From the NCBI RefSeq assembly GCF_004353525.1, contig NZ_CP085524.1, positions 692,001 to 756,000 of the forward strand: a stretch of 64,000 nucleotides of DNA, in the 5' to 3' direction. The stretch comes from Zhaonella formicivorans (GTDB lineage: Bacteria; Bacillota; DUOV01; Zhaonellaceae). The notes below the pieces were generated by a model. The model was not told the origin of the DNA. It saw nothing but the letters and a program-made list of their open reading frames with translations, and ran no database searches. Positions 5,481-17,488 of this stretch are shown in pieces (the stretch's first letter is position 1; each line of letters starts with the position of its first letter). Both the position numbers and the translations under genes were made by a program.

Positions 5481-6188
5481 TTGGGTACCGCTTTGCTGGC
5501 GTTATTTACCCTTTCTGTATTGAAAGGGATTGCTTTGCTGGTTTCTTACATCAGCAATAACGCGTTTCCTCAGCCTTTGTCGGAGGAAGAAGAAGCGCTG
5601 CAGGTAAAAAGAATGAGAGAGGGCAGTGAAGAGGCTAAAAACATCCTCGTAGAGCATAACCTGAGATTAGTTGCCCACATCACCAAAAAGTTTGAAGGAA
5701 CAGGAGAGGAAAGCGACGATCTGATTTCCATCGGCACCATCGGCCTCATCAAAGCAATTAATACTTTTGATCCCGATAAAGGTACCCGGCTGGCAACCTA
5801 CGCTGCCCGCTGCATAGAGAATGAGATCTTGATGCATTTACGGGCTACAAAAAAGACAAGGGTGGAAGTATCCCTCTACGACCCTATCGGGGTGGATAAA
5901 GAAGGAAACGAAATTGCACTGATTGATGTATTGGGCACTGAGCATGATGTAGTGGCAGATTCTGTAGAAAATGTTCACGAGCAGCGAAGGGTACTGGAGA
6001 AGATCAAAATACTTAGCAAAAGGGAGCGTAACGTACTGGAACTGCGTTTCGGGTTATTTAATACCTTGCGCAAAACCCAGCGGGAAATCGCTAACCGCTT
6101 AGGGATTTCCCGGTCTTATGTGTCACGGATAGAGAAAAAAGCGATAGAAAAGCTGCTGAAAGAACTGTCGTCGGAAAAGGGGCAGTGA
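5481..6188 (+). CDS. sigK: Pro-sigma-K, late mother-cell sporulation sigma factor
   Basis: RNA polymerase sigma-70 family factor of 235 residues that directs late mother-cell transcription (spore coat and cortex). Region 2 is seen as EHNLRLVAHITKKF and DDLISIGTIGLIKAI, and the region 4 helix-turn-helix as TQREIANRLGISRSYVSRIEKKA. The N-terminus is hydrophobic (ALLALFTLSVLKGIALLVS), matching the Bacillus pro-sequence; by analogy SpoIVFB would cut between S22 and Y23, before ISNNAFPQPL. The gene is intact, with no skin-type element inserted. It starts at TTG 5481 after GGGGGTGGG. A terminator follows at 6256-6290. Confidence 0.95.
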   Translation: MGTALLALFTLSVLKGIALLVSYISNNAFPQPLSEEEEALQVKRMREGSEEAKNILVEHNLRLVAHITKKFEGTGEESDDLISIGTIGLIKAINTFDPDKGTRLATYAARCIENEILMHLRATKKTRVEVSLYDPIGVDKEGNEIALIDVLGTEHDVVADSVENVHEQRRVLEKIKILSKRERNVLELRFGLFNTLRKTQREIANRLGISRSYVSRIEKKAIEKLLKELSSEKGQ

Positions 6189-6255
6189 AATGAGTTACCG
6201 GGAACTGTTTACTCAACTAAAGGGTGGTCAAAGCGGGGGATTAATTAAATGCGAA

Positions 6256-6290
6256 CAGCGTGGTATACATTGCCACGCTGTAGTCTTTTT
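6256..6290 (+). terminator. Rho-independent terminator of sigK
   Basis: CAGCGTGG (6256-6263) pairs exactly with CCACGCTG (6273-6280) across a nine-base loop and is followed by TAGTCTTTTT. It separates sigK from the pyl genes. Confidence 0.85.
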
Positions 6291-6411: not shown

Positions 6412-7530
6412 ATGGCAGTTCCGGGCCAATCATTTGATTTGGATCAAGCATTGGATAAAGCGTATGATGAAATCCCGCTTAGCAAGGCGGAAATTCTAGG
6501 TTTGTTGAATTTAACCGGGCGGGCGGAAATAGAGCAGGTTTTTGAGGCAGCTAGAGCATTGCGCAGGAGATATTTTGGCACTGAGGTCTTTCTTTACGGA
6601 TTTGTTTATTTTTCCACTTACTGCCGAAATGATTGTGCCTTTTGTTATTACCGCAAATCCAACCAGGGTACCGTACGCTATCGTAAGGAGACAGGTGAAA
6701 TAGTGGACACGGCATGCAAGCTGGCAGAATCAGGAGTCCATTTGGTTGATTTGACGATGGGAGAAGATCCTGAGTATTTTTTAGAGAAACGCACCGGATT
6801 TGAGGGACTGGTGCAAATTGCGGAGCAGGTCAAAAAAGCTACTAAGTTACCATTAATGGCATCGCCGGGGGTTGTACCTGACCAGGTTTTGGTGGAATTA
6901 AAAAAAGCGGGTGTTGATTGGTATGCTTGTTATCAGGAAACTCATAACCGGACGCTTTATAGCAAACTGCGCCTAAAACAGAGCTATGACGAAAGGTTGA
7001 GAAAAAAGAAATTTGCCAGGCAGTTAGGCCTTTTGATTGAAGAGGGATTGCTTACCGGGGTAGGAGATTCACCGGAGGACATTGTAGTTTCCCTGCAAGT
7101 AATGAAACTGCTAGGCGCCCATCAAATTAGGGTGATGAGCTTTGTTCCTCAAAAAGGCACTCCCATGTACAAAGAGGAACCAGTTTCGCGTTTGCGGGAA
7201 CTGTTAATTATTGCCGTAATGCGTTTACTCTTTCCCGAGCGGTTGATCCCGGCTTCCCTGGATGTGGATGGGATTGTGGGTTTAAAACAGCGCTTGGATG
7301 CAGGGGCTAACGTGGTAACATCCATTATTCCCCCTCAAGCGGGTTTGTTGGGGGTTTCCCAGAGTTCATTGGATATAGAGGAAGGTTACCGGTCGGTTAA
7401 TGGCGTACTGCCGGTGCTCCAGGCTTGTGGACTTGCTCCGGCAAGCCTGGAGCGATACGTTAGTTGGCTCGAAAAGCAGCGGCAGCAGTCTTTAAATTCG
7501 AAAAAGGCGGGAGCAAAAGGATGCGAGTAG
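6412..7530 (+). CDS. pylB: Methylornithine synthase PylB (radical SAM)
   Basis: Radical SAM lysine mutase that converts L-lysine to (3R)-3-methyl-D-ornithine, the first step of pyrrolysine synthesis. The Fe-S ligands are C71-xxx-C75-xx-C78 (CRNDCAFC), followed by the aromatic YY seen in radical SAM enzymes; the rest is a TIM barrel related to biotin synthase. The 372-residue length is close to archaeal PylB. ATG 6412 follows AGGAAGGTGA. Its last ten bases overlap pylC, and it ends in TAG with TAA two codons further on. PylC and PylD next door make the assignment secure. No pylS or pylT is adjacent. Confidence 0.95.
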   Translation: MAVPGQSFDLDQALDKAYDEIPLSKAEILGLLNLTGRAEIEQVFEAARALRRRYFGTEVFLYGFVYFSTYCRNDCAFCYYRKSNQGTVRYRKETGEIVDTACKLAESGVHLVDLTMGEDPEYFLEKRTGFEGLVQIAEQVKKATKLPLMASPGVVPDQVLVELKKAGVDWYACYQETHNRTLYSKLRLKQSYDERLRKKKFARQLGLLIEEGLLTGVGDSPEDIVVSLQVMKLLGAHQIRVMSFVPQKGTPMYKEEPVSRLRELLIIAVMRLLFPERLIPASLDVDGIVGLKQRLDAGANVVTSIIPPQAGLLGVSQSSLDIEEGYRSVNGVLPVLQACGLAPASLERYVSWLEKQRQQSLNSKKAGAKGCE

Positions 7531-8681
7531 CTATAATCGGAGGAAGGCTCCAAGGAGTTGAGGCGGCTTACCTGGCTAAAAAGGCAGGCTGGAAAGTAAC
7601 ATTGCTTGACAAAGACAGTTCAGTTCCTGCCATGGGACTGTGTGATACTTTTTATTGTCTGGATGTAGGCTGTCATAAGGAATTAAAAGCAGTTTTAAAA
7701 GGGGTTGACTTCATAATTCCTGCTCTGGAAAATAAGCAAGGTTTGGAAGGAATCAGTCAGGTGGCTAAAGAGGTGGATATCCCCCTGGCATTTGATGCTC
7801 ACGCCTATGCCATCTCTTCCTCCAAAATTGAATCTAATAAATTGTTTAAGGATATCGGAATACCTATACCTTGCCTCTGGCCTGAATGCGCTTTCCCGGT
7901 TATTGTCAAGCCTTCCGGGGCCAGCGGCAGTCAAGGGGTTTGTTACATTAAAAACAGCCAGGAATTATCCCGGCTGTTGGATGACCTTGGCGGTACCAGC
8001 AATGACCTGGTTATCCAGGAGTTTTCGGACGGTCCTTCCTTTTCCATTGAAGTATTGGGTTTTCAAGGCACTTACCAGGCATTGCAGGTAACGGAACTTG
8101 AGATGGATGCTAAATATGACTGCAAGCGGGTGCTGGCCCCGGCTTTGCTTTCCGAGGATTTGCGCCGGCAGTTTGAGCATTTGGCGGTTTTGATTGCGGG
8201 AGCTTTAAACCTAAACGGGATCATGGATGTGGAGGTAATCTTGCAGCAGGGTCAATTCCAGGTACTAGAGATAGATGCCAGATTACCCAGTCAAACTCCT
8301 ACAGCCGTATATAAGTCGAGCGGTGTGAATATGCTCCAGTTGTTAGGAAAAATGTTTACTGAAGGACAGCCTGTGGAGCTTCTAAAAGTGGAAGAGGCGA
8401 AGGGAACAGTTTACGAACACATTTGGATAACACCGGACAAACTGGAAGTTTGTGGGGAGCATATTATGTCTGAAGCCGGCCCGTTACAGTTAAGAGATGA
8501 TTTTTTCGGCGCCGATGAGGCTATAACCAATTACTTGCCGGGCAAAGACGCCTGGGTAGCTACCCTGATAGTCACCGGGGAAAATCGCCGGGAAGCCTGG
8601 GAGAAGAGATGCGAAGTTATTGCCAGGATCAGCAAGGAGTTGCGCTTGGGAAGATATGTTGATCCGTCTCCCCAGTTTTAA
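7521..8681 (+). CDS. pylC: 3-methylornithine--L-lysine ligase PylC (ATP-grasp)
   Basis: ATP-grasp ligase joining 3-methylornithine to the epsilon-amino group of lysine, step two of pyrrolysine synthesis. The N-terminal Rossmann-like segment (MRVAIIGGRLQGVEAAYLAKKAGW) and the ATP-grasp loop (VIVKPSGASGSQGV) are clear, and the Mg/ATP site shows as DVEVILQQGQFQVLEIDARLP. ATG 7521, inside the end of pylB, is chosen because AAGGCGGGAG precedes it and it begins the conserved MRVAIIGG; the longer upstream reading has no support. The product is 386 aa. The overlap implies translational coupling with pylB. Confidence 0.95.
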   Translation: MRVAIIGGRLQGVEAAYLAKKAGWKVTLLDKDSSVPAMGLCDTFYCLDVGCHKELKAVLKGVDFIIPALENKQGLEGISQVAKEVDIPLAFDAHAYAISSSKIESNKLFKDIGIPIPCLWPECAFPVIVKPSGASGSQGVCYIKNSQELSRLLDDLGGTSNDLVIQEFSDGPSFSIEVLGFQGTYQALQVTELEMDAKYDCKRVLAPALLSEDLRRQFEHLAVLIAGALNLNGIMDVEVILQQGQFQVLEIDARLPSQTPTAVYKSSGVNMLQLLGKMFTEGQPVELLKVEEAKGTVYEHIWITPDKLEVCGEHIMSEAGPLQLRDDFFGADEAITNYLPGKDAWVATLIVTGENRREAWEKRCEVIARISKELRLGRYVDPSPQF

Positions 8682-8732
8682 CGAACATCATTTAAACCGT
8701 TTCCCACGTAAACTAAACTTGAGGTGAGTTGT

Positions 8733-9590
8733 ATGACTAGGCTCTGTTCAGCTGATGTACGGGATATTGGACTCCAGTTAAAGGTATATAATCAGCAGCT
8801 GGTAAAAAAAACGGGTTATACCTTAGGCCAGATTGCTGCCCATGCTGCTGGGGTAGAAAAAGAGTATTTATCCCGCAGGCAGGAGTTCAACGTGGCAGTA
8901 ATTCCGGTAACCAACGGTAAAGGAATCATTGAAGGATTTGGGGAGGCGGTGCGCAGTATCGTCAGTTTCCTTGGGTTTAACGCTTTTCTCACCGAAAGTA
9001 CTGATGTGTCCGGTTTGGCAGAAGCTTGCCAAAAAGGCGCTGATGTCATCATGCTGGCAGATGACTACCGTTTTGTGGCCATTAACCTTGCTGCCAAAAA
9101 AGTGGTTGATAATGCCGCCGCTACGGCCAAAGGTTATGTGGCCGCCCTGAGTTTCATGGCCGGAGGTTTGGCCAATAAAGAGGTTTTATTGTTGGGCGCA
9201 GGACGTGTGGGCAGGAATGCTGCTTCTGCTATGGTCCAGTTGGGAGCCTCTGTAACAATTTACGATGCGGACTTTGAAGTTAGCTGTAAATTGGCCCAGG
9301 AAATAAAGGCGAAATATAATATCCAACTTACAGTTGCAACTAAGCTGGAGGAGGCTTTGGTGCAGCACAGGATTCTTTTTGATGCCTGTCCCGCCGCCGG
9401 TTTCATTCAGCCACAGCACGTTACGACGGAGACGCTGATTGCTGCACCTGGTATACCGCTGGGCCTTGCCAAATCATGCCTGCCACTGGTGGCTGACCGT
9501 TTGCTGCATGATCCGCTGCAGCTGGGGGTGGCCACTATGATTGTTGCAGCTGCTCATGGGAGCGGTTTGGATTTTGGTGGTGCAATATAG
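8733..9590 (+). CDS. pylD: Pyrrolysine synthase PylD
   Basis: NAD-dependent dehydrogenase that oxidises lysine-N-epsilon-3-methylornithine so that it cyclises to pyrrolysine, the last biosynthetic step. Conserved PylD segments include VIPVTNGKGIIEGF, TDVSGLAEACQKGADVIMLADD and the Rossmann loop LLGAGRVGRNAA. ATG 8733 with GAGGTGA (8721-8727) is preferred to GTG 8724, which lies inside the Shine-Dalgarno. The product is 285 aa. It follows pylC after 51 bases, so the three genes form one pylBCD unit. Its own stop is TAG at 9588-9590; readthrough as pyrrolysine would add 16 further residues before TAA. Confidence 0.95.
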   Translation: MTRLCSADVRDIGLQLKVYNQQLVKKTGYTLGQIAAHAAGVEKEYLSRRQEFNVAVIPVTNGKGIIEGFGEAVRSIVSFLGFNAFLTESTDVSGLAEACQKGADVIMLADDYRFVAINLAAKKVVDNAAATAKGYVAALSFMAGGLANKEVLLLGAGRVGRNAASAMVQLGASVTIYDADFEVSCKLAQEIKAKYNIQLTVATKLEEALVQHRILFDACPAAGFIQPQHVTTETLIAAPGIPLGLAKSCLPLVADRLLHDPLQLGVATMIVAAAHGSGLDFGGAI

Positions 9591-9661
9591 GCCTGGCATG
9601 GGAACTTTTGTTTTTCAGGCTTTTATGTTATAATTAGTTAAATTTTGCGGGTGAGGTCGAT

Positions 9662-10189
9662 ATGAGCGCTAAATCCATTTTACAACCCAGTTTATATGTA
9701 GAAACGCTTTTACACATTCCTTTAGCCGAGCTGGCTGCCCGCGGGATCAAAGGCTTGATTATTGATCTGGATAACACCATCACGGAATGGAACAGTCCGG
9801 AGTTAAAAGAAGAGGTTTCGGCCTGGTTTAAAAGTTTAGCCGGGTATGAGCTGAGAGCATGTATAGCCTCCAACAACAGCCGGGACAGGGTGGAGCAAAT
9901 TGGGCGCAGCTTAGGGATTCCTGCTATTCACAAAGCCGGTAAACCGCGACGGAAGGCCTTTCGTCAGGCAATGAACGTACTTGGGACCAACCAACATACT
10001 ACAGCCGTAATAGGTGATCAGATATTTACCGATATACTGGGAGGAAATCGTTTAGGAATGTATACCATCCTGGTAAGCCCTCTTAACCCCAGGGAATTTA
10101 TCGGAACACGCCTTGTGCGCAAACTGGAGCGATTGGTATTAAAAAAGTATTTCAATAAAGGGGATCGTTATGAAGGAAATTACAAGTAA
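9662..10189 (+). CDS. yqeG: YqeG family HAD IIIA-type phosphatase
   Basis: Small HAD-superfamily phosphatase of 175 residues. Motif I is IIDLDNTITEW (DxDNT), motif II ASNN, and motifs III/IV appear as KAGKPRRKAF and GDQIFTDILGGN. Members sit beside aroE in many Firmicutes; the substrate is unsettled (a phosphatidylglycerophosphate phosphatase role is known for relatives). A TATAAT-like hexamer at about 9629-9634 may be its promoter. The 3' end overlaps aroE by 20 bases, so the two are co-translated. Confidence 0.88.
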   Translation: MSAKSILQPSLYVETLLHIPLAELAARGIKGLIIDLDNTITEWNSPELKEEVSAWFKSLAGYELRACIASNNSRDRVEQIGRSLGIPAIHKAGKPRRKAFRQAMNVLGTNQHTTAVIGDQIFTDILGGNRLGMYTILVSPLNPREFIGTRLVRKLERLVLKKYFNKGDRYEGNYK

Positions 10190-11048
10190 AACGCTGATAA
10201 CCGGTATTTTTGGCTACCCTTTGTCCCATACATTGTCGCCAGCCATGCATAATAAAGCTTTTGAGGCCTTAGGACTAGATTACGTTTATTTGCCTTTCCC
10301 GGTTTCTCCTGAAAATTTGCCTCCAGCGGTAAAAGCTCTTTCCGCATTGGGATTTAAAGGAGTAAATATTACCATACCGCATAAGGAAACAGTCATGAAA
10401 TATTTGGATGAAGTGGCGAAAGAGGCTGAACTCATTGGCGCGGTTAACACAATTGTTGTCAAAGAGGGAAAGCTTTGCGGTTTTAACACTGACGGCAGCG
10501 GCTTTTTAAATTCTCTGCGGGAAGCTGGCTTTGATCCAAAAGGCAAAAAAGCTGTGGTGCTGGGAGCAGGAGGGGCTTGCCGGGCAGTAGCCATGACCTT
10601 AAGCTGGGCAGGAATTGGCAAACTCCATCTTGCAGCCCGTTCTGTTGCCAAGGCGGAAAATTTGGCCCGGGATATCAGCAACTTTTCATCAACTTGGCTG
10701 GAAGTCTCAAACCTGGAAGACCTAACGGAGCAAGCTATCGGCGAAGCTGATTTAATTATTAACACCACGCCGGTAGGGATGTATCCCCACGTAGACGAAC
10801 TGGCTCCGCTAAATACCAACGCTTTGCACCGGGGACAGCTTGTCTGTGATTTGATTTACAACCCTTTGCAAACAACTTTATTAAAGGAGGCAGGAAAGCA
10901 AGGCTGCGCAACTTTAAATGGCATAGGCATGCTTGTTTATCAAGGGGCCGAATCTTTTTCCCTCTGGACAGAAAAATCGGCACCATTAGAGGTTATGCGG
11001 CAGGCAGTACTAAACAATGTCGGGAAAAGTAGGAAAAAAGTGCCGTAA
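10170..11048 (+). CDS. aroE: Shikimate dehydrogenase
   Basis: NADP-dependent reduction of 3-dehydroshikimate to shikimate in the chorismate pathway. Substrate-binding motifs are SHTLSPAMHN near the start and NITIPHKETVM with the catalytic Lys; GAVNTIV and NTDGSGF follow. The nucleotide loop is GAGGACRAVA. Length (292 aa) is typical. ATG 10170 lies within the end of yqeG after AAGGGGATCG. With aroC, aroK, aroB and aroQ in this window, only the early DAHP synthase and EPSP synthase steps are missing. Confidence 0.95.
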   Translation: MKEITSKTLITGIFGYPLSHTLSPAMHNKAFEALGLDYVYLPFPVSPENLPPAVKALSALGFKGVNITIPHKETVMKYLDEVAKEAELIGAVNTIVVKEGKLCGFNTDGSGFLNSLREAGFDPKGKKAVVLGAGGACRAVAMTLSWAGIGKLHLAARSVAKAENLARDISNFSSTWLEVSNLEDLTEQAIGEADLIINTTPVGMYPHVDELAPLNTNALHRGQLVCDLIYNPLQTTLLKEAGKQGCATLNGIGMLVYQGAESFSLWTEKSAPLEVMRQAVLNNVGKSRKKVP

Positions 11049-14513: not shown

Positions 14514-16211
14514 GTGGTGGTCAGAAAGAAATTAGGCGAACTATTGGTGGAAAGCCAGCTGATTACCGCGGAGCAGTTGAACCAAGCGTTGCGGTCTAAG
14601 AAGCCCGGCGAAAGGTTAGGCCAGGTGCTGGTAAGCCTTGGGTATGTAACGGAACAGGATATTATTAACGTCTTGGAGTTTCAGCTGGGTATTCCGCAAA
14701 TCAAACTTAGTGAGCTGAGCTTGGAGTTAAACGTAGTCAGGTTGTTGCCGGAGTCCATAGCCAGAAGGTATAATGCCATACCCGTTAAACTGAATGATGG
14801 TTATTTAACGGTGGCTATGGTAGATCCTCTCAACGTGGTGGCTCTTGATGATATCAGGCTTACAACCGGTTATGAAATTGAGCCGGCTATTGCTACTGAA
14901 GAGGAGATAACCAGGGCTTTAGCAGAGTACTATGGGCTGCAGGATTTGGCTGATAAAGTATTACAGGAATTGGAAATAAGCCAAGTGGTGGAAAGACCGG
15001 AACTGGTCCAGTTAGGGGAAGGGGCCTCAGACGGAAACGAGGCACCGGTAGTGCGTGTTGTCAACTCCATAATTCAGCAGGCTATAAAAACAAGAGCCAG
15101 CGACATTCATCTCGAGCCTCAGGAAGATAAGGTGCGGGTGAGGTTTAGAGTGGACGGCTTGCTGCGCGAAAACATGGCACTGCCTAAAAACTCCGCCGCC
15201 TCTATAGTCTCCAGAGTGAAAATTATGGCCGAGATGGATATTGCAGAAAAAAGGGTCCCACAGGATGGGCGGATACAGCTTAAGGTTGAAGGCAGGGAGA
15301 TCGACCTGCGGGTTTCTTCTCTGCCAACCATTTTCGGTGAAAAAATTGTCATGCGTATTCTGGATAAATCCAGCCAGTTAATAAGTTTGAACAAGTTGGG
15401 ATTTAGGCCGGAACTGTTGAACGCGTACATTAACCTAATCAATATTGCCTATGGCATGATCCTGGTCACCGGGCCCACCGGGAGCGGTAAGACAACAACC
15501 CTCTACGCTACTCTAAACGAAATCAACACTGCCGAAAAGAATATAGTTACAATTGAAGATCCGGTTGAATATGTTTTAGAAGGAATCAACCAGATCGGGG
15601 TCAATACCAAAGCCGGGCTTACATTTGCCACCGGCTTGCGTTCCATCCTTCGCCAAGATCCTGATGTAATTATGGTGGGTGAAATCAGGGACGGAGAAAC
15701 GGCTGATATTGCAGTGCGGGCTGCAACTACCGGTCACTTAGTGTTCAGCACTTTGCACACCAACGATGCCGCCGGAGCCTTACCGCGCCTGATTGATATT
15801 GGAGCGGAGCCATTTTTGGTGGCTTCCTCTGTGGCAGGTGTAGTAGCCCAGCGGTTAGTGCGCGTAATTTGTCCAAAATGTAAAAAGGCATATCAAGTCC
15901 CACCCGGTGCGGCGGAAAGGCTGTTTTTGGCAAAGCCGGAAGGAGACTTGACCATTTTTAAAGGCGTTGGCTGTCGGGAGTGCGGTAATACGGGCTATAA
16001 AGGGCGCATGGCAATACATGAGGTACTGCATGTTACCAGGGAAATTCGGGAGCTGATTATGGAAAAGGCGCCGGCGGAAACTATTAAGCAGCAAGCGGTA
16101 AAACAGGGCATGGTGACTTTAAAGGAGGATGGCGTACAAAAAGTGTTGTGCGGGCTGACTACAGTGGAGGAAGTAATGCGGGTTGCTTACAGCGAAACGG
16201 CAAGCTGGTAG
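14514..16211 (+). CDS. pilB: Type IV pilus extension ATPase PilB with MshEN-like N-domain
   Basis: Hexameric cytoplasmic ATPase powering pilus assembly. Residues 6-57 form a tandem MshEN-like c-di-GMP module: the first motif is degenerate (K6-L-G...), the second intact (R34-L-G36...G43...Q57). The core has Walker A GPTGSGKTTT at about 320, the Asp-box IEDPVEYVLEGINQIGV, Walker B VIMVGEIRDGETA and a four-cysteine zinc site (CPKCKK...CREC) near 450-490. At 565 residues it is full length. GTG 14514 follows GGCGGAAG. It is the first pilus gene, 25 bases after aroB. Confidence 0.95.
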   Translation: MVVRKKLGELLVESQLITAEQLNQALRSKKPGERLGQVLVSLGYVTEQDIINVLEFQLGIPQIKLSELSLELNVVRLLPESIARRYNAIPVKLNDGYLTVAMVDPLNVVALDDIRLTTGYEIEPAIATEEEITRALAEYYGLQDLADKVLQELEISQVVERPELVQLGEGASDGNEAPVVRVVNSIIQQAIKTRASDIHLEPQEDKVRVRFRVDGLLRENMALPKNSAASIVSRVKIMAEMDIAEKRVPQDGRIQLKVEGREIDLRVSSLPTIFGEKIVMRILDKSSQLISLNKLGFRPELLNAYINLINIAYGMILVTGPTGSGKTTTLYATLNEINTAEKNIVTIEDPVEYVLEGINQIGVNTKAGLTFATGLRSILRQDPDVIMVGEIRDGETADIAVRAATTGHLVFSTLHTNDAAGALPRLIDIGAEPFLVASSVAGVVAQRLVRVICPKCKKAYQVPPGAAERLFLAKPEGDLTIFKGVGCRECGNTGYKGRMAIHEVLHVTREIRELIMEKAPAETIKQQAVKQGMVTLKEDGVQKVLCGLTTVEEVMRVAYSETASW

Positions 16212-17277: not shown

Positions 17278-17370
17278 AGGGTTGTAATAAAAAATGTACG
17301 GGCATAAAAAGGAATTTTAGACATGAAGGCGAATATATAGTCTGCACAGCCAAATAATGTGTTGATCCCC

Positions 17371-17453
17371 AAATATTAGGCAAACCTGTCGAAAGGCAGG
17401 GACGCAAAGCTGCGGACCTACAGACAAACAGTCTATGGTAGCCGGGCTGCCGA
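17371..17453 (+). promoter_or_regulatory. Cyclic di-GMP-I (GEMM) riboswitch
   Basis: The GEMM-I core is plain: AGGCAAACC, a GAAA tetraloop hairpin (CCTGTC-GAAA-GGCAGG), the invariant GGGACGCAAAGC, then GGACCTA...TATGGTAGC and the closing GGTAGC-CGG-GCTGCC stem. It lies in the 242-base gap between pilT and pilC, a known setting for this class because c-di-GMP controls pili. Its 3' stem (17441-17452) is also the 5' arm of the downstream terminator, so ligand binding should prevent termination (ON switch, by inference). Confidence 0.93.
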
Positions 17454-17488
17454 AGGTTTAATCATGTAACCCGGTACCCGGCTTTTTG
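17441..17488 (+). terminator. Riboswitch expression-platform terminator
   Basis: GCCGGG, CCG and GGTT (17441-17459) pair with AACC, CGG and CCCGGC (17469-17482), followed by TTTTT. The 5' arm is part of the aptamer's last helix, making the two folds mutually exclusive. Confidence 0.85.

Follow-up and report, generated by a model that had tools for sequence, protein, structure and literature searches.

The genes for the synthesis of pyrrolysine, the rare 22nd amino acid, are located in Zhaonella formicivorans at positions 6412-9590 of the analysed window, a stretch of 64,000 nucleotides at positions 692001-756000 of the genome's single 3,314,304-base contig (C1, 3.31 Mb). Here, intact pylB, pylC and pylD genes were identified between sigK and yqeG. 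Protein families were assigned by the NCBIfam equivalog cut-offs, and the following features are present (window coordinates):

5481..6188, plus strand: sigK, sporulation sigma factor, left flank (TIGR02846, 350 bits, cut-off 299)
6255..6281, plus strand: terminator-like hairpin followed by a T-run, between sigK and pylB (11 pairs, 6 GC)
6412..7530, plus strand: pylB, 3-methylornithine synthase, a radical SAM protein (TIGR03910, 512.6 bits, cut-off 348)
7521..8681, plus strand: pylC, start taken as ATG 7521 (TIGR03909, 468.1 bits, cut-off 248)
8733..9590, plus strand: pylD, 3-methylornithyl-N6-lysine dehydrogenase, start taken as ATG 8733 (TIGR03911, 288.9 bits, cut-off 150)
9610..9640, plus strand: possible yqeG promoter with a TATAAT element, between pylD and yqeG (by eye and pairwise alignment)
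9662..10189, plus strand: yqeG, HAD-IIIA phosphatase, right flank (TIGR01668, 131.8 bits, cut-off 89)
10170-11048: aroE, after yqeG

A preliminary description of this DNA had named the same trio beside sigK and the same two flanking genes. Both assignments were confirmed, with the three Pyl proteins scoring far above their equivalog cut-offs and SigK and YqeG also exceeding theirs. The gene coordinates given there were correct except for two probable starts, which were moved to 7521 for pylC and 8733 for pylD; with the former, the most likely one, the last 10 bases of pylB overlap with pylC. None of the three genes is truncated, frameshifted or interrupted by an internal stop. In PylB, the radical SAM motif CxxxCxxC is intact (C71-x3-C75-x2-C78). 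PylB matches the solved PylB 3t7v over nearly its full length, and PylC and PylD match the solved PylC 4ffl and PylD 4j43/4q39, respectively, over most of their lengths. For pylB, pylC (over cut-off) and pylD, one match each was identified in the genome at the thresholds used.

The hairpin after sigK is to be regarded as suggestive only, the number of hairpin hits in the region being no higher than in shuffled sequences. A TATAAT is also found upstream of yqeG in a relative (G001) by pairwise alignment; a promoter scan made no call at the element at 9610..9640 and called nothing convincing in front of pylB. In the first 20 kb of the window, a c-di-GMP-I riboswitch was the only RNA family to pass. 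It is located at 17369-17454 on the plus strand (80.9 bits, gathering score 35), and a gene for an ATPase of the type II/IV secretion or pilus type (14514-16211) lies upstream of it.

The absence of pylS and pylT from this locus, as described previously, holds: ARAGORN identified no tRNA gene across the whole 64 kb window, and the only pylSc above cut-off and the only pylSn in the genome lie outside it. They were found elsewhere on the same contig, together with the tRNA gene:

C1:2593212-2593934, minus strand: pylSc (389 bits, cut-off 178)
C1:2592804-2593070, minus strand: pylSn (143 bits, cut-off 51)
just upstream of pylSc, in the region C1:2.593-2.594 Mb: pylT, tRNA-Pyl with anticodon CTA (ARAGORN)

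These three genes are grouped together about 1.89 Mb from pylBCD. The spacing between pylSc and pylSn is 57 bp, and pylSn is convergent with an mttB gene carrying an in-frame TAG. Against 3dsq, a solved PylSc of the bacterial type, PylSc aligns along its length with 433 bits. With separate PylSc and PylSn proteins, a tRNA-Pyl with a CUA anticodon, PylB, PylC and PylD above their family cut-offs and a TAG at the conserved Pyl position in the target methyltransferases, the system is of the bacterial type in these respects, but not in clustering, the order pylTScBCDSn or pylSnScBCD being replaced by two halves 1.89 Mb apart. Clustering of pyl genes is usual but not essential, and a split case is on record (PMC3941956).

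It had been proposed earlier to look in the rest of the genome for pylSc, pylSn, tRNA-Pyl(CUA) and TAG-bearing mttB, mtbB and mtmB genes. Apart from mtmB, of which none is present in the genome, all were identified. Among 19 genes of the MttB family, four contain exactly one in-frame TAG; aligned with the 15 other MttB genes, these four TAGs share one alignment column, in the context G-O-x-DSK or T-O-x-DSK. One mtbB gene contains a single in-frame TAG, in the context GLOIGVGDP, and is clustered with a corrinoid protein gene and one of the TAG-bearing mttB genes. In total, an in-frame TAG is found in five genes for methylamine methyltransferases.

In a tally covering about 144 kb, TAG was the stop codon of 32 of 127 ORFs, and of approximately 27 of 122 (about a fifth) when the five Pyl genes were left out, which shows no avoidance of TAG as a stop. 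This usage agrees with the view that bacteria depend on regulation and not on codon avoidance (PMC3941956). The pylB and pylD genes themselves end in TAG (window 7528-7530 and 9588-9590), and PylD would become 17 residues longer by readthrough. An autoregulation by such readthrough was considered and dropped, because TAG ends 24 of 89 pylB and 13 of 75 pylD genes, which is about the ordinary rate, and because the downstream extensions are dissimilar.

Exact sigma-54 -24/-12 sites were identified in three of four 20 kb methyltransferase regions (2, 3 and 2 sites; expectation from shuffles 0.05-0.07), with none in the fourth region and none in the 64 kb window. One, adjoining a PAS/sigma-54 activator gene, is located just before the TAG-bearing mttB beside pylS, another about 0.3 kb before a further TAG-bearing mttB, and another before the string of genes leading to mtbB and mttB. 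Neither pylBCD nor pylT has such a site, and a search for a motif common to the upstream regions of pylB and pylT found none. The lack of a sigma-54 site at pylBCD, together with the hairpin after sigK and the TATAAT before yqeG, suggests that pyrrolysine supply may be uncoupled from the methylamine switch in this organism. Directly upstream of mtbB/mttB, a gene similar to lysine 2,3-aminomutase and genes for CoA-transferase subunits were also observed (L116 5904-8820; C1:400.9-403.8 kb), each set with an exact sigma-54 site ahead of it. Pyrrolysine, too, has lysine as its precursor.

The preliminary description had called bacterial pyl genes rare, which is somewhat overstated, as 23 of the 398 genomes sampled from the phylum have pylD and 22 have pylSc. 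In all but three genomes, the two genes are on the same contig within about 10 kb. The exceptions are Z. formicivorans and the genomes G059 and G206. For G059, a second split was considered and rejected: pylSc and a choline-kinase-like gene lie at the end of one contig and pylB begins another, most likely as the result of an assembly gap, because Desulfosporosinus metallidurans (L160) has exactly this order in one piece. For G206, neither pylSc nor pylB was hit, and its pylCD-Sn contig is only 3.6 kb long and begins inside pylC. A further collection of named loci was assembled by a contig scan seeded with PylB, the PylD alignment being too diverse for seeding. Sixty of these loci contain pylB, pylC and pylD, and 58 of the 60 also contain pylSc or pylSn, the remaining two being contigs of 6.7 and 3.4 kb. 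In none of the named loci is pylBCD placed between sigK and yqeG. No other complete split between synthesis and decoding was identified among the genomes and loci surveyed, and no report of a clean one was found in the literature searched, mostly papers outside subscription.

Genes for choline-kinase/APH-like phosphotransferases were observed beside or inside pyl clusters (L105 198-1151, L160 8669-9637, L027 9625-10863). Such a gene lies between pylSc and pylB in L160 and adjoins pylSc where the contig ends in G059, and a different APH-family gene is present near the pylS locus of Z. formicivorans. A link of these genes to quaternary amine metabolism is possible.

The system is a known one in a new arrangement, and partial splits have precedents. 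With the Desulfitobacterium-type cluster pylT-Sc-B-C-D-Sn it shares the same six genes, the separation of PylSc from PylSn, UAG-bearing MttB/MtbB targets and the use of TAG as an ordinary stop; it differs in that pylBCD is found between sigK and yqeG, 1.89 Mb from pylT-Sc-Sn, whereas the usual bacterial cluster is contiguous or broken by a few genes (PMC3941956). In 'Ca. Methanomethylophilus alvus', a full pyl set is likewise split on the chromosome, with pylB about 0.7 Mb away from the other pyl genes (PMC3941956); however, this organism is an archaeon without PylSn, and only pylB has moved. A bacterial split is also present in a closed Bacillota genome (G071; L113), where pylB (C1:2793989 of that genome) is 0.29 Mb off. 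Here, too, only pylB is apart, and pylC and pylD remain with pylSc and pylSn in the order pylC-pylSn-pylSc-pylD at about 2.499-2.503 Mb; no tRNA-Pyl was found within 18 kb around this main cluster. 'Ca. Formimonas warabiya' DCMF (PMC6778437), a member of the Bacillota with many mttB genes, has its pyl genes distributed over more than one locus, but differs in having two pylB copies. One of its loci (L129, 9828-11547) contains pylT, an intact pylB and a pylC of 157 amino acids lacking most of its middle, with no pylD, pylSc or pylSn found within 10 kb; the second pylB is at L145. The L129 locus gives the impression of a partial cluster in decay and not of a clean split.

The origin of the arrangement can be read from the relatives. 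In G001 and G002, which represent the family's two other sampled genera, sigK is directly followed by yqeG-aroE, and pylD and pylSc are absent from both, so that the junction of sigK and yqeG represents the empty site. In most close relatives, pylBCD is located between pylSc and pylSn. The order is pylT-Sc-B-C-D-Sn in L136 and G345, and in L160, apparently also in G059, the choline-kinase-like gene lies between pylSc and pylB. In G059, pylSn is convergent with a TAG-bearing mttB, as in Z. formicivorans. Removal of B-C-D from the order of the relatives yields the pylS locus of Z. formicivorans. Trees of 53 taxa were calculated for both halves, the one for PylB, PylC and PylD having been proposed in the preliminary description as a test for transfer. 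In the PylSc+PylSn tree, the genome is sister to six taxa (G059, L136, L160, L144, G385 and G345; 99/98), and in the PylB+C+D tree it is sister to the identical six (89/95; SH-aLRT 99, mixture model). All six have linked pyl clusters, that of G059 holding the contig break. The same placement in both trees indicates that a single ancestral cluster was broken up when part of it relocated. Reading and alignment of the two junctions revealed no repeats, no transposase or other mobile genes and no scar.

As an alternative, horizontal transfer from different donors might have brought in the two halves independently, without their ever having been clustered in this lineage. With pylD and pylSc missing from G001 and G002, the pyl system is likely to have been either acquired within the Z. 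formicivorans lineage or lost around it. The GC3 values of the halves also differ. That of pylBCD speaks for the relocation as well, being with 0.47-0.49 closer to its present neighbours (0.44-0.51) than to pylSc, pylSn and mttB (0.55-0.60). Against the separate gain, the two halves share one six-member sister clade, in which every member has the genes linked, and the pylSc-pylSn-mttB context equals that of the linked G059 cluster without pylBCD. The congruent trees make separate gain very unlikely and the move of a three-gene block the simplest account. An apparent split produced by misassembly or contamination is exceedingly improbable. Although the genome has an estimated contamination of 2.75% and is the only one in the set with a split of exactly this kind, it consists of a single 3.31 Mb contig that is 99.2% complete, both loci and their junctions are in a coherent and ordinary gene context, and the sigK and yqeG flanks follow the family's own gene order.

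The preliminary description had left the choice between a split arrangement and a relic. The split was verified, the missing parts being present elsewhere on the same contig, and the relic is excluded as far as can be judged from the sequence. It could be argued for a relic, or for a role outside translation, for example in the metabolism of free pyrrolysine or methylornithine, that pylBCD adjoins no methylamine gene and lacks the sigma-54 site present at three methylamine loci. However, the genes are full length without stops or frameshifts and all score far over the cut-offs, and PylB retains the radical SAM cysteines; pyrrolysine is needed by the complete decoding set and by the five targets with a UAG, and no further copy of pylB, pylC or pylD was found in the genome. 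Such a relic or other role is hardly credible.

The locus is thus very probably part of a pyrrolysine system in which every known part is present and which was physically split by the relocation of pylBCD. From an ancestral pylT-pylSc-pylBCD-pylSn cluster, pylBCD would have been lost as one unit from between pylSc and pylSn, leaving these two genes adjacent, and the block would have been set down between sigK and yqeG. PylB, PylC and PylD are predicted to make pyrrolysine from two lysines, and the products of pylT-pylSc-pylSn, encoded 1.89 Mb off, would provide the charged amber-reading tRNA, which would then read the in-frame UAG in four MttB proteins and one MtbB. All parts are probably expressed and working. 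A further, rather doubtful idea is that the split is functional, synthesis being freed from methylamine control; pyrrolysine might then be made constitutively or by late-growth read-through from sigK, with pylT/pylS and the expression of the targets as the only gates on UAG decoding.

The pyl genes are viewed as a portable cassette for the expansion of the genetic code, inherited as a unit. In Z. formicivorans, supply and decoding are cleanly separated and the state before the separation is readable in the relatives, so that a fixed cassette need not stay together. For annotation, this cautions that pylS and pylT missing beside pylBCD are not necessarily missing from the genome. The claim that UAG recoding is tolerated in bacteria through the regulation of pyl genes, and not through the avoidance of TAG stops, also gains a natural comparison in this organism.
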